From Candidatus Poseidoniaceae archaeon (GTDB taxonomy: Archaea; Thermoplasmatota; Poseidoniia; Poseidoniales; Poseidoniaceae), in contig JASLKG010000006.1 in NCBI GenBank assembly GCA_030747695.1, positions 1 to 64,000 of the forward strand: a DNA stretch of 64,000 bases, read 5' to 3'. The notes beneath the pieces were generated by a model that saw only the letters and a program-made list of their open reading frames with translations, was not told where the DNA came from and did no database searches. The translations under genes were made by a program, and so were the position numbers. This document shows, piece after piece, positions 21,475 through 27,367 of this stretch (position 1 is the first letter of the stretch; each line of letters begins with the position of its first letter).

Positions 21475-22074
21475 TTGATTTCATTAAATGGCGCAAAAAT
21501 ATCTGGATTAATTTGTGGTATTGAATTAATCGATCAAGGTTTTAATGTTGAAATTTTTGAAAAACGCCAAGAAATCGGCAATCCAATAAATGGACCTGGA
21601 ATAATTAATGAATTATCAAAAGACGAAAAAAGAATATGTACAGCGAGAGAAACAAAAATAGGTTGGGCTCTTAGAAGAGAGTGGTTTGAAAAAAATTTAG
21701 CTAAAAAATTTCTTAATAAAGGAGGAGTAATACACTTAAAATCAAAACCACCTCCAAATTCACACAACACAAACAACATTCACAAAAAAACTTGGTATGG
21801 AGGAGTAACAATCGAAGAAAACAAACCAAATAATTTCATAATTGATTCAATTAATGGTAACAATCTTTGTTTTAAGAGAGGAGATGGGCTGATTGAATGT
21901 TGGTCTGATATAGAATTACCAAATATGAAAAACGGCTGGTTAGAAAAAATTCAAGGAAAACACCCAGAAGATATTAACAAACTAACAATAAATAGGGAGA
22001 TTGATGAAGGCCAATCAATAGCCCAGAAAATCATCAGACTAATAGGAGGTGAAATAAAACATGATTCCAGATGA
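21475..22074 (+). CDS. Shortened geranylgeranyl reductase-like flavoprotein (199 aa, TTG start)
   Basis: VEIFEKRQEIGNPINGPGI and ALRREWFEKNLAKKFLNKGG resemble the GGR N-terminal region; overlaps the GGGP synthase gene by 14 nt. Confidence 0.6.
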   Translation: MISLNGAKISGLICGIELIDQGFNVEIFEKRQEIGNPINGPGIINELSKDEKRICTARETKIGWALRREWFEKNLAKKFLNKGGVIHLKSKPPPNSHNTNNIHKKTWYGGVTIEENKPNNFIIDSINGNNLCFKRGDGLIECWSDIELPNMKNGWLEKIQGKHPEDINKLTINREIDEGQSIAQKIIRLIGGEIKHDSR

Positions 22075-22870
22075 AGGCCTTCTAAATTATATAATAAAAA
22101 GAACCGATGGTTGCCGCCATATTACATTAATAGATCCGGGAAAACAGAGTGCAGAAATTGCAGTTAGAAGAGCAATTACAGCAATAGAAGCAGGATCTAG
22201 GATGATTTTCATTGGAGGTTCTACAAATACACCAAACGAAATAGTTCATACAACTTGTTTAAAAATTCAAGAAGAATTAGAATTAAGAATTTTTGCAGCA
22301 AGCCAAGACCCAACAATTAATGAAGAATATTGGAAGATTCCAATAATTCTTTTCCCAGGAGGATCGCACGCCCTATCTCCTTCTGCAGATGGGATAACCT
22401 TCATGATGTTAATGAATTCAAAAGCCCGTAAATTTTTAATCAATGAGCAATTAAAAGGCGCTTCTTATTTGGAAAAATATAACATCGAAACAATACCTAC
22501 AGGATATCTTGTATTTGCTCCCGGGGGTAAAGTCGGAGAGGTAGGGGAAGCATCATTAATAGAAGAGAACGAATTAGAATTAGTTTATTCATATGCGCTT
22601 ACTGCAAAGATGTTCGGATTTAAAACACTCTATTTAGAAGCGGGAAGCGGCTCGAATAAACAAGTAAACATTAACTGTATTAAAGAAGCAAAAAAAGTTG
22701 ATGAATTATGTTTAATTGTGGGAGGGGGAATTAGAACCCCAGAACAAGCAAAACTTGCAGCTGAAGCAGGAGCAGATTGGATTGTTACAGGTAATTTATG
22801 TGAAGAATTAGAAGATTTAGATAAATTAAGAAAAACCCTAGAGGAGCTAATCACCCCCCTGAATAATTAA
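22061..22870 (+). CDS. Geranylgeranylglyceryl phosphate synthase (GGGPS)
   Basis: TLIDPGKQ, FIGGSTNTP, FPGGSHALSPSADGITFMMLMNS, YLEAGSGSNKQV, VGGGIRTPEQA. Confidence 0.9.
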   Translation: MIPDEGLLNYIIKRTDGCRHITLIDPGKQSAEIAVRRAITAIEAGSRMIFIGGSTNTPNEIVHTTCLKIQEELELRIFAASQDPTINEEYWKIPIILFPGGSHALSPSADGITFMMLMNSKARKFLINEQLKGASYLEKYNIETIPTGYLVFAPGGKVGEVGEASLIEENELELVYSYALTAKMFGFKTLYLEAGSGSNKQVNINCIKEAKKVDELCLIVGGGIRTPEQAKLAAEAGADWIVTGNLCEELEDLDKLRKTLEELITPLNN

Positions 22871-24153
22871 TCCTCTTCGAAAACAACAGGGTCCCCACTA
22901 CCACCGGGAGCATCAGGGCGATCAGTATCAACATCAATACCAGAATCCAACTCTTCTATTTTTTGTTCCAATTCTATTTCTCCACCCTTTGCTAGAGTTT
23001 TCATATCATCCGAGGTCGGAGTCGAAATCTTCCTTTCAACATCTGGAGAATTAGCATACATTTCTTTCTTTAATTCTCTTTCATCATGCCCCCTTACTAA
23101 TGACAACGAATCAGCAAACACCCTTCCGACAACCTCTCTTGTTCTTTCAGAACGCCGAACACCATCTAACTCAGCAGCAGCAACCTCTCTTTGCCCCTCT
23201 AACTCTTTAATTTCAGCAGTCCGATCTGTTAGGGCGGCTTCTAAATCACCAATCGTCAAAGACATTTGTTGTATTCTCTCATCTCTTTCGAATACATCAT
23301 TATGTAATCTCCTCTCCCTTCTCCTCAAAGATTCATATTCTCTATTTCTTTCAAGTAACCGGCGCTTCAACTCTTCAATTTGCTCAACCAGGTAATCATG
23401 TTCAGCAGACACCGAACGCGGCCCCTGCATAACACGTTCCAATTGCTCTTCCAATTCCGCCAATCGCTGGTCGCGTTGATCCAATAAACCACGCAAACGG
23501 TCTGCAATGTCACGCAAACGCTGCCTTTCTTCTTCTAAAGAAAGATTAGCAGCCTTTTCAGCTTCAAGATCGGCAGAAAGAGAATCGGTTTGCACCTTTA
23601 ATGCCCTAACCTCGTCAGCAGTAACACTAGTTAAACCAGCATCAGCAGCTCTTTCTAAAGCATCTACCATTTGAGACATTCTTCCTTCCATTTCAGCAAT
23701 AACATCATCTTGTTGAGTAGTTAGTTCACGTAATTGTGATAACTCGTTTTCTAATACTAAACGCTCTTCAGCAGAAATACTAGATTGATTTAATTCTAAT
23801 TCCTTTTTACTATCTTCTAATAGTCTTTCTAAATGGATTATTTTTGCAGACTTTTCTTCTAATTCAGATTCAGCTTGTTGCAATTGAATCACTTCAGGAG
23901 CAATTTCATCCTTTCTTTCAGCCAAATCTAATTCCAAAACCCGTAATCTTTGTTTTGTTGTAACTAAATCTTCATTTCTATCAGCAAGTTCTTGCCATGC
24001 AATTAAAACCTCATCAACAAGTTGTTCAATCGGATATCCACGCAACATCCCTTCAAGCGCAGCACGCTCATCTTTGGATGAATTACCGATGCGGCGAATG
24101 CCATCAGGTGTAGTCGAGCCGAGAGTCATTGTACCCAATCGCACATCAACCAT
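22867..24153 (-). CDS. Long coiled-coil protein
   Basis: 428 aa, extended heptad-like Glu/Leu/Arg-rich region; downstream of the MamK-like gene on the same strand. Confidence 0.75.
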   Translation of the reverse strand: MVDVRLGTMTLGSTTPDGIRRIGNSSKDERAALEGMLRGYPIEQLVDEVLIAWQELADRNEDLVTTKQRLRVLELDLAERKDEIAPEVIQLQQAESELEEKSAKIIHLERLLEDSKKELELNQSSISAEERLVLENELSQLRELTTQQDDVIAEMEGRMSQMVDALERAADAGLTSVTADEVRALKVQTDSLSADLEAEKAANLSLEEERQRLRDIADRLRGLLDQRDQRLAELEEQLERVMQGPRSVSAEHDYLVEQIEELKRRLLERNREYESLRRRERRLHNDVFERDERIQQMSLTIGDLEAALTDRTAEIKELEGQREVAAAELDGVRRSERTREVVGRVFADSLSLVRGHDERELKKEMYANSPDVERKISTPTSDDMKTLAKGGEIELEQKIEELDSGIDVDTDRPDAPGGSGDPVVFEED

Positions 24154-24203
24154 TATTCAACCTTTCATCTCTTAAGGGGCCCTTCGGGCCCATTATGGGA
24201 CCT

Positions 24204-25208
24204 TTAGTTTATGGCGGTATATTGCTCATCAGGCATATCCTGGGCCAATGCCATAGCTCCAGTGGCAACCTTTTCAATTGGGTCATCAACACAAGTAACT
24301 GTAACATCACCAATATCCCCAATTTCATTAGCGATTGCATCAGCAATTCCACCAATCAACGAACCGCCTCCAGAGAGAATGATATTATTTCTCAGCACTG
24401 GTTGATATTCAGGATCTGCTGTTGCGACAATTGATTTTATTGCGTTACCTACCTTGTTTACAATCATCGAACAAGCCTCTTTAATTAAGTCACCAACATC
24501 AACATCTTGCTTCTTACCTTCTACAGACAATTCAACCATTTGTACACGATCATCCCCATCAACATATGAATGCGCTTCTTTCCATTTACGAACCATGTCT
24601 TTTGTAATTTGAGCACCAGTAAATTTCTTCTTTACTAGATCCATTAATTGCTCATCAATCCAATCCCCAGCTTCTTCAATAGTTAATTGATCTTCTTCGG
24701 CCGGGAAGATACCGTAAAGACGAGCAATATCTGTTGTGCCCGCCCCAATATCAACAACAATTGAACCTGCAATTTCACCAATACCATAAGCGGTTGCAAA
24801 CGGCTCAGTTACAACCATTATTGCATTCACTTGTCCACGAAGTGTAGCAACTAAGTTACTCTTGTCAGTAAATGAAACATGAGAAGGCGAACAAATGACG
24901 CCAAAAACCTCATCATATTCTTCAGGATCTACGGTTTCTACTAAATGTGTTACAAACGCTTTAGCCGCAGCCAAATTCGCCTCATCATCTTGGGCAACAC
25001 CAGCAGCCATTGGCCGATACAAATTACAAGCCAATTTATTCTTTAACGCATCAGCGCCAAACAATACATCCCTTCCAAGAAAATTTCTTGCTACAGGATC
25101 CTTCGGTCTACCTACAACAGTTTCAATAGTTTCCATTGAACCTGAACTTGATGCGATAGTTGATTGATACGTTCCAAGATCAATTCCAACATAGAGTCTT
25201 TCTGCCAT
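24204..25208 (-). CDS. Actin-like ATPase, MamK-like
   Basis: GIDLGTYQST, VVDIGAGTTDIA, ILSGGGSLIGG nucleotide-binding motifs; VVGRPKDPVARNFLG, NLYRPMAAGV and PAEEDQLTIEEAGDWIDEQL parallel MamK; start at MAERL. Confidence 0.85.
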   Translation of the reverse strand: MAERLYVGIDLGTYQSTIASSSGSMETIETVVGRPKDPVARNFLGRDVLFGADALKNKLACNLYRPMAAGVAQDDEANLAAAKAFVTHLVETVDPEEYDEVFGVICSPSHVSFTDKSNLVATLRGQVNAIMVVTEPFATAYGIGEIAGSIVVDIGAGTTDIARLYGIFPAEEDQLTIEEAGDWIDEQLMDLVKKKFTGAQITKDMVRKWKEAHSYVDGDDRVQMVELSVEGKKQDVDVGDLIKEACSMIVNKVGNAIKSIVATADPEYQPVLRNNIILSGGGSLIGGIADAIANEIGDIGDVTVTCVDDPIEKVATGAMALAQDMPDEQYTAIN

Positions 25209-25282: not shown

Positions 25283-27367
25283 CTACTCCTCTTCTTCAAC
25301 AAAAGGAGGAGGTGGAGAATCAAAAACCCACTTTTCATAACGTCTAAATGCAACACTGGCAGCGACTAAAGCCCCAACAATAATCCCTACAACACTCCAC
25401 ATTAACACCCGGTTTTGCCCAGAAGTTGATTGTGAAGGGGTAGAGGGCAAAATACCGTTATTTTCAAACTGCGGATTAATCCACCAAATAGTAAAATTAG
25501 AACTAATAACCGACGAATTCATCGGTAAAGTCCACCCAGAGGAATTATCATCATAAGCTAAAATTTCAATTTTCCAATTTTCACTATTTAGTTGATAAAC
25601 AACCAAATCTGTTGACAAATCAATAGTACAATTCCCACCCCCTACACCTTCAACAATTCTTGCACAATCTACCAAATCAATAGTTTGACTTTCGTTTTGT
25701 AATTTTATTGAAACAACAACACGATCCATCTCCAAATCATTCACATACCATTCTACCTCAATAACATCAGAATTATTTGATGAAGGATGTGGAGAAATAA
25801 TCGTAATTTGCGGGGCAGAATTCTCCTCTCCTAACCAAACCCCACTCGCGGAAAGAGCGAAACCAACCATATCCCCATTAACTCCCAAAAAACCTTCATT
25901 TACTCCCTGTGTAATATTTGCTGCGAAAATTTCAATATCTAACCATTCTACACCAATTAAATCCTCACTAGGAATTCTAATCATAACCGTTGTTTCATTA
26001 CTCGACCCATCTTCATATGGATTGGAAACACTTCCATAATACATTGAACTATAACCCGAAGATAACATAACATCATCAACAAAATAATCACCATTTGGCT
26101 TGTGAACAATTAATCGCAAATCATCAATTTTTCCATTTTGCAGTGGTAGTGCATTATATGACATACTTACTATAACATCTTCATCAATCTTGGGAATTAC
26201 AGGAAGGTGAAAAGACTCACCACTCTTAAGGAATGGGCCCTTTGCATTAGAACCATTCCAAGGGTTTGAAATCAACTGGTCTATTTTTCCACCCCGCGAA
26301 GAAATCACATCTTTCCAATCTTCAGTTTGATATGAATCATACACAACAATTTCACTATTTATATTGTCAATCAAAGGGCGACCATATCCTTGTATATGAT
26401 CGGGCCTCATATCTGTAATATTTTCTGCAGACATAGCAAGAAGGGCCCGAAGCAAAGGACCAGATGGAGTAAAACCAAATTCCACTTCAATCATTTCTTG
26501 TAGTAGCGCTGCAAAAGAAGCAGCTACAGGGGTTGAAACCGAAGTTCCAGTCAATTGATATGAATCATTATTCATAGAATAATTAAGACCATCTGCTTTA
26601 GCTGAAACAATTCCTTCACCGGGCGCACAAATCAAAACACCCCTTCTATTATTCACATCAGGGCCGATTGAGGAAGCGCCCCACATTGAACCATTATATT
26701 CAGAATCACAAGCAGAAACAGCTACAACATTTCTTGCATTCGCAGGTTCCAATAACATGCCCCCATTATTTCCCGGCGCTACAAAAACAAGCGACCAAGG
26801 ATTTTCTAAACTCCACAAATCAATATTATTACTTCTATTTGTATAATTCACAGTATTATCTCCCCAGGACCAACTATTAATTACAGCCCCATGCTGAAAA
26901 CTTTCCTCCAAAAGCTCATTCACAGGAGGGACCGCCCATCCCTCTCCACCAACAACATCCTGGATCAATAATTTAGCACCATTAGATATAGACTTCATAT
27001 CTACACCACCCTCGATAGGATCGCAAGCCAAAATTCCTGCCAAATGAGTTCCATGCTTAAATTGTGTATGGCCTTGATAATCCCCACTATCTATGCTATC
27101 ATTATAATGAATTATTTTACGGTGCTGGGAGCCAAAATCCCCCACCTCTTCTAATTGATTTCTAAAACATGCGTGATCAACATCAACCCCAGTATCTGCA
27201 ATAGCAACAACAACCCCAGATCCATTATATTTTGAATTATTTTGATGGTACAAATACCAATCATCAAAAAAGATCAAATCACCCCCATCTCTTCCAATTT
27301 CATCACGATTAGCAACAACAGGAGAAGCGATAGAAAACAATAACACCCCTACAATTACCCACCGCAT
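25283..27367 (-). CDS. Secreted, C-terminally membrane-anchored S8 subtilisin-like protease
   Basis: Signal peptide; catalytic IADTGVDVDH, HGTHLAGIL, GTSVSTPVAA; C-terminal TM. Confidence 0.9.
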   Translation of the reverse strand: MRWVIVGVLLFSIASPVVANRDEIGRDGGDLIFFDDWYLYHQNNSKYNGSGVVVAIADTGVDVDHACFRNQLEEVGDFGSQHRKIIHYNDSIDSGDYQGHTQFKHGTHLAGILACDPIEGGVDMKSISNGAKLLIQDVVGGEGWAVPPVNELLEESFQHGAVINSWSWGDNTVNYTNRSNNIDLWSLENPWSLVFVAPGNNGGMLLEPANARNVVAVSACDSEYNGSMWGASSIGPDVNNRRGVLICAPGEGIVSAKADGLNYSMNNDSYQLTGTSVSTPVAASFAALLQEMIEVEFGFTPSGPLLRALLAMSAENITDMRPDHIQGYGRPLIDNINSEIVVYDSYQTEDWKDVISSRGGKIDQLISNPWNGSNAKGPFLKSGESFHLPVIPKIDEDVIVSMSYNALPLQNGKIDDLRLIVHKPNGDYFVDDVMLSSGYSSMYYGSVSNPYEDGSSNETTVMIRIPSEDLIGVEWLDIEIFAANITQGVNEGFLGVNGDMVGFALSASGVWLGEENSAPQITIISPHPSSNNSDVIEVEWYVNDLEMDRVVVSIKLQNESQTIDLVDCARIVEGVGGGNCTIDLSTDLVVYQLNSENWKIEILAYDDNSSGWTLPMNSSVISSNFTIWWINPQFENNGILPSTPSQSTSGQNRVLMWSVVGIIVGALVAASVAFRRYEKWVFDSPPPPFVEEEE

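Follow-up and report, generated by a model that had tools for sequence, protein, structure and literature searches.

What would an actin related to MamK, the filament protein of magnetosomes, do in a marine archaeon, and does the long coiled-coil protein encoded beside it belong to the same system? The question is raised by a stretch of 64,000 nucleotides (hereafter the window; bases 1-64000 of contig C6) from a genome of 11 contigs and 1.79 Mb, which belongs to the Poseidoniales (Marine Group II), a group of abundant marine archaea, and there to the family Poseidoniaceae. An earlier note, made from the letters of the window alone, had pointed to the two genes as a candidate cytoskeletal module, and both open reading frames were found where it had placed them, on the minus strand: the MamK-related actin (A, 334 aa; 24204..25208), recognized from its reading frame, the MamK profile, PDB matches and an AlphaFold model, and the coiled-coil protein (CC, 428 aa as called; 22867..24153). 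The mechanical start of the A frame is 25256, and orthologue comparison supports the conserved start at 25208 that the note had given, most orthologues being 334-336 aa long when counted from the Met at this position. CC indeed follows downstream on the same strand, but the gap of 50 nt reported for it probably needs correction: since orthologues begin at its second Met, the real start of CC is probably 24129 (giving 420 aa), so that the distance between the genes would be about 74 nt. Both genes are under purifying selection, with pN/pS of about 0.10 for A and 0.2 for CC. Downstream of CC and convergent with it lies a PcrB-family gene (22061..22870, plus strand), which we take to encode geranylgeranylglyceryl phosphate synthase; it stands outside the module and serves as the syntenic anchor for comparison of the locus. 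Upstream of A lies a subtilase gene (Peptidase_S8; 25283..27367, minus strand), whose membership of the module is uncertain; of the genomes examined, most of those with the actin have it next to A, whereas those without the actin do not have it at this place. Among relatives, the length of this subtilase ranges from 694 to 1136 aa.

The likeness to MamK is borne out by profile, structure-database and model comparisons, and the assignment as an actin lies far beyond chance. A matches the NCBIfam MamK profile over its full length (333 bits, E = 1.6e-99), followed by BeeR (212 bits), MreB (81 bits) and salactin (44.6 bits), and scores above the cut-off of the Pfam family MreB_Mbl (E = 7e-23); the best solved chains in PDB are those of MamK (5e-61) and then BeeR. 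The AlphaFold model, computed with 24 window and public sequences as input (pLDDT 90, pTM 0.87; fold starting at residue 4), finds its best structural match in the MamK filament subunit 5ljv (TM 0.92, rmsd 1.8 A). A combines the two-domain actin fold with the nucleotide-binding motifs of the actin superfamily, namely the phosphate-1 loop GIDLGT, connect-1 EPF (E135), phosphate-2 DIGAGTTD (D153/D160) and the adenosine loop GGG (280-282), and all actin motifs quoted in the earlier note are present in its product. Identity to MamK proteins is 32-42%, with the same motifs, and equivalents of the MamK catalytic residues Glu143 and Asp161 are retained in all copies of A and of its paralogue B (described below) with a called base. 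Given the profile ranks, the fit of the model and the kept catalytic residues, A is a full-length actin-fold ATPase of the MamK/MreB side.

The NCBIfam definition of MamK does not include A, because its score falls below the curated cut-off of 400 bits; the B copies, at up to 376 bits, are also below. Nor does A belong to BeeR (cut-off 530 bits), MreB (NCBIfam cut-off 293 bits, only the broad Pfam family being passed) or salactin (cut-off 400 bits). When distant outgroups were left out, the tree resolved A (100/100), B (100/99) and bacterial MamK (100/99) as three separate clades, the last of which takes in sequences from the archaeon G364 and a phage; addition of MreB and BeeR produced very long branches and an unreliable root. 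Tree and profile scores, a check that had been proposed with the original observation, place A beside MamK and away from Hsp70/Ppx. A is MamK-related, in a separate clade next to bacterial MamK: with MamK (NF040964; PDB 5ljv, 5jyg) it shares the full-length profile match, motifs and fold, whereas it differs in its score, its clade, its archaeal host and the lack of detectable MamB and MamE. Indeed, profiles found neither MamB nor full MamE in four Poseidoniales genomes (G000, G041, G050 and G033), whereas both exceeded the cut-off in a magnetotactic control (G536), in agreement with the earlier remark that no magnetosome genes are visible; a magnetosome origin was rejected on these grounds. 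An argument from residue 278 was dropped as well: substitution A278D stops MamK polymerising (title of PDB 5ljw) and B carries D/N at this position, but so do MamK proteins of Desulfamplus, and therefore nothing follows for B.

CC is a genuine coiled coil, with 32% of its residues heptad-like, compared to 2% in shuffled sequences; profile searches found no recognised DNA-binding domain in it. The most conserved segment, residues 241-300 (VMQGPRSVSAEHDYLVEQIEELKRRLLERNREYE...; 23254..23433, minus strand), which may be the actin-binding segment, agrees with the window residue at 91-98% identity throughout the set (78-90% for the two Thalassarchaeaceae), and a second conserved block of the same, actin-linked half covers residues 338-355 (RTREVVGRVFADSLSLVR; 23089..23142, minus strand). 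Directly 5' of the probable CC start lies a leader element, GAARGTTSAANNRTRGTT...CGAT (24130..24166, minus strand), recognized by its sequence conservation in relatives: six relatives drawn from both families each contain a single copy of the pattern, in every case ahead of CC, the actin-less genome G034 contains none, and a reversed control pattern never occurs. The window itself carries a variant missed by the strict pattern. No Rfam family matches the element, and a leader hairpin is only weakly supported, its covariation score being reached by 1 of 500 shuffles, but only 57% of cells pairing and RNAalifold predicting none. Another hairpin, GC-rich and situated in the window between the two genes, was discarded for lack of conservation in relatives.

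A survey of 341 Thermoplasmatota genomes with the MamK profile (E up to 1e-20) recovered the A and B copies of Poseidoniales, the protein of archaeon G364 and a weak match in the MreB range in G494, and nothing else. Among 293 Poseidoniales genomes, A and/or B are present in nearly all Poseidoniaceae and, within Thalassarchaeaceae, in genera g5, g7, g9 and g22, with one weak match in g3. In a set of 146 genomes, thirteen Thalassarchaeaceae carry these genes (G032, G033, G040, G061, G067, G084, G090, G094, G098, G129, G142, G150 and G162), the last of them, 75% complete, with B and its partner only. CC is present in every A-bearing Thalassarchaeaceae genome of this set. In both families, almost every actin-bearing genome has CC directly after A, so that the coiled-coil neighbour suggested as a plausible filament partner is conserved beside the actin, which was the second check proposed for the locus. 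In G004, a 3.7 kb gene separates A from a full-length CC, and in G163, CC is located about 60 kb from A with its C-terminal half fully kept. Judged from gene order and conservation, the A-CC pairing is real.

The paralogue B (C4:27754-28740), 45% identical to A, resides in a different, conserved gene setting, consisting of a thiolase, a zinc-ribbon protein, B itself, a membrane protein and a gene that we read as CoaBC-like. The zinc-ribbon protein, found wherever B occurs in the Thalassarchaeaceae of the 146-genome set, is the partner of B; it carries invariant cysteine pairs near each end, which flank an unassigned middle part, and a search with its medium-confidence model (pLDDT 76) returned weak, low-TM fold matches only, none of them convincing. 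In one single-contig Poseidoniaceae genome (G041:C1:1175447-1176441), B is split into two adjacent reading frames, by either a frameshift or a sequencing error. A 45-aa stretch of the B partner, TerB-like in our own reading (there is no Pfam hit), recurs in reading frames of about 150 aa that lie some 6-10 kb away from genes for archaellins (G000:C8:77082-77222 and comparable loci in relatives).

The loss of these genes bears on the role of CC. In a clade of actin-less Thalassarchaeaceae, A, B, the B partner and the C-terminal half of CC are all missing, and at the place of CC, beside the synthase gene and usually also a beta-CASP nuclease gene, there is a stub of 132-166 aa, which aligns with CC residues about 30-168 (23650..24066, minus strand) and stops there, without the most conserved segment. 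A profile of the N-terminal part of CC recovers stubs in four genomes held out from it (G025, G027, G078 and G104), whereas matches to a profile of residues 169-360 are limited to actin-bearing genomes. In a tree of neighbouring genes, the actin-less genera form one clade (98/98), and in the simplest history the ancestor would have had the full set, which Poseidoniaceae and some of the Thalassarchaeaceae retained and which was lost a single time. G028 and G086, two genomes inside an actin-bearing genus that have neither of the actins, nor CC, nor the B partner, may represent a second joint loss, although only tentatively, since the contig of G028 ends at the locus. The joint loss appears to be mainly one event, and the clade concerned has smaller genomes, so that general gene loss could have removed unrelated genes together. 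Could CC, then, be an unrelated gene that merely adjoins A? Survival of the stub in actin-less genomes speaks in favour of this explanation and implies that part of CC works without actin; we nevertheless consider it improbable, because it is exactly the C-terminal half that goes with A and because full CC is kept even where it has moved away from the actin (G163) or is split from it by another gene (G004).

We therefore lean, with modest confidence, towards a two-gene cytoskeletal module of Poseidoniales in which A forms filaments and CC acts as a dedicated adaptor. From its fold, motifs and kinship, A is expected to bind ATP and polymerise into MamK-like filaments. The C-terminal half of CC (about residues 169-360, above all 241-300) would bind these filaments, whereas the N-terminal half would retain an older, actin-independent activity, probably the binding of some cargo or cellular site that is present in actin-less cells as well, and this division between the halves would make CC an adaptor. 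The A filament may thereby position or anchor the ligand of the N-terminal half, in the way that MamK and coiled-coil proteins do with magnetosomes, and B, inherited together with A, probably forms a second or a mixed filament.

One possible target is the archaellum or the chemotaxis apparatus, which A might position at the pole with CC as the link. Archaellins are encoded in almost all Poseidoniaceae and in the actin-bearing genera g5 and g9, and the TerB-like stretch of the B partner recurs close to archaellin genes. However, the archaellin survey gives exceptions in both directions: genus g7 possesses A, B, CC and the B partner and yielded no archaellin match in the genomes checked, whereas genera g4 and g21 and genome G028 carry archaellins without actin. 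Motility genes are likewise reported from every MGIIa but only some MGIIb subclades, a few in number (Tully, PMC6336850). The archaellum link fits poorly and is, in our judgement, unlikely.

Equally unlikely, we believe, is that A determines cell shape, as do MreB or volactin. The match of A to Pfam MreB_Mbl, a weak match of B to Volactin and the fact that a search with A as query found no other actin-like protein in the genome would be compatible with such a role, but no MreC/RodA-type neighbours were seen, and MGIIa and MGIIb cells are reported to be alike, both being cocci of <1 um (PMC6864105), though much of MGIIb is without the genes. Rod-shape control, in particular, fits the evidence poorly. 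Segregation of chromosomal DNA in the manner of ParM or salactin, with CC as DNA adaptor, has a similarly low probability: there are weak matches to a PHROG 'partition protein' and to salactin, which is reported to be closest to MamK (PMC10746226), but A reaches only E=0.001 with the ParM profile, CC is devoid of a recognised DNA-binding domain, and the locus is chromosomal and old, with the whole set dispensable in a large clade. Finally, a non-polymerising actin-fold ATPase (Hsp70-, FtsA- or Ppx-like), suggested by a marginal Pfam HSP70 match (22.3 bits against a cut-off of 20.6), is very improbable, considering that the MamK, BeeR and MreB scores are all far higher, that A has 334 aa without a substrate-binding domain, and that its model is closest to filament structures.

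The module of filament and adaptor that we favour has partial counterparts in several known systems. Crenactin with its arcadins likewise combines an archaeal actin and a partner protein in one conserved gene cluster, but crenactin is a eukaryote-type actin, whereas A is of the MamK/MreB type. The haloarchaeal salactin and volactin are, like A, archaeal actins of bacterial type, but A reaches only about 45 bits with the salactin profile, against its cut-off of 400. BeeR of Verrucomicrobiota (PDB 8r2n), which showed that MamK relatives occur in bacteria without magnetosomes (PMC11929497), has a disordered N-terminal extension of 30-50 aa that A lacks. The closest working parallel is found in deep-branching magnetotactic bacteria, which use MamK, Mad28 and coiled-coil Mad proteins: in Desulfovibrio magneticus, MamK, the second actin Mad28 and the coiled-coil proteins Mad20, Mad23, Mad25 and Mad26 interact to organise magnetosomes (PMC12748827). 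As in the Poseidoniales set, two actin-like proteins are accompanied by coiled-coil partners; the parallel drawn here is one of arrangement rather than of sequence between CC and Mad proteins, and the Poseidoniales set comes without a magnetosome.

MamK-like genes were also observed elsewhere. Thermoplasmata archaeon SG225.bin14 (G364; L131/L111), with a genome of 5 Mb, encodes a MamK-like protein scoring 435 bits, above the NCBIfam cut-off, on a contig that carries genes for an archaeal-type RNA polymerase and diphthamide synthase and is hence archaeal. The next gene downstream, in the same orientation, encodes a 618-aa protein with abundant long charged helix, which parallels A-CC, and profile searches of this genome found no MamE and only a MamB match below the cut-off. 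On a viral contig (L211:4989-6029; IMGVR_UViG_3300009370_000045), a MamK-like actin (359 bits) that groups with MamK-like proteins of Planctomycetota is encoded between the major head protein and the terminase large subunit. In Planctomycetota (L132, L160, L162 and L190), the neighbours downstream of the MamK-like genes are non-magnetosomal (recombinase, kinase, anchor-domain protein and an unassigned one). Archaea, Planctomycetota (beside genes of other kinds) and a phage contig all harbour MamK-type actins in the absence of the magnetosome genes tested.

In the library of papers searched, we found no paper that joins MamK with Marine Group II, and among the papers naming actin together with Marine Group II, judged by title, none is about these proteins. 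What emerges is an archaeal family of MamK-related actins that has a coiled-coil partner dedicated to it, and the evidence points to a new, two-part archaeal cytoskeleton. The contrast between the stub and full CC is a natural truncation experiment, which shows which half should be tested for actin binding. More tentatively, and with rather less confidence than for the A-CC module itself, Marine Group II archaea might possess two filaments of MamK type, with one dedicated partner apiece, that organise an as yet unseen internal structure, in which case organelle-type MamK actins would be older and wider in distribution than magnetosomes. An old, conserved pair of actins with dedicated partners would give Marine Group II cells a cytoskeleton to study.
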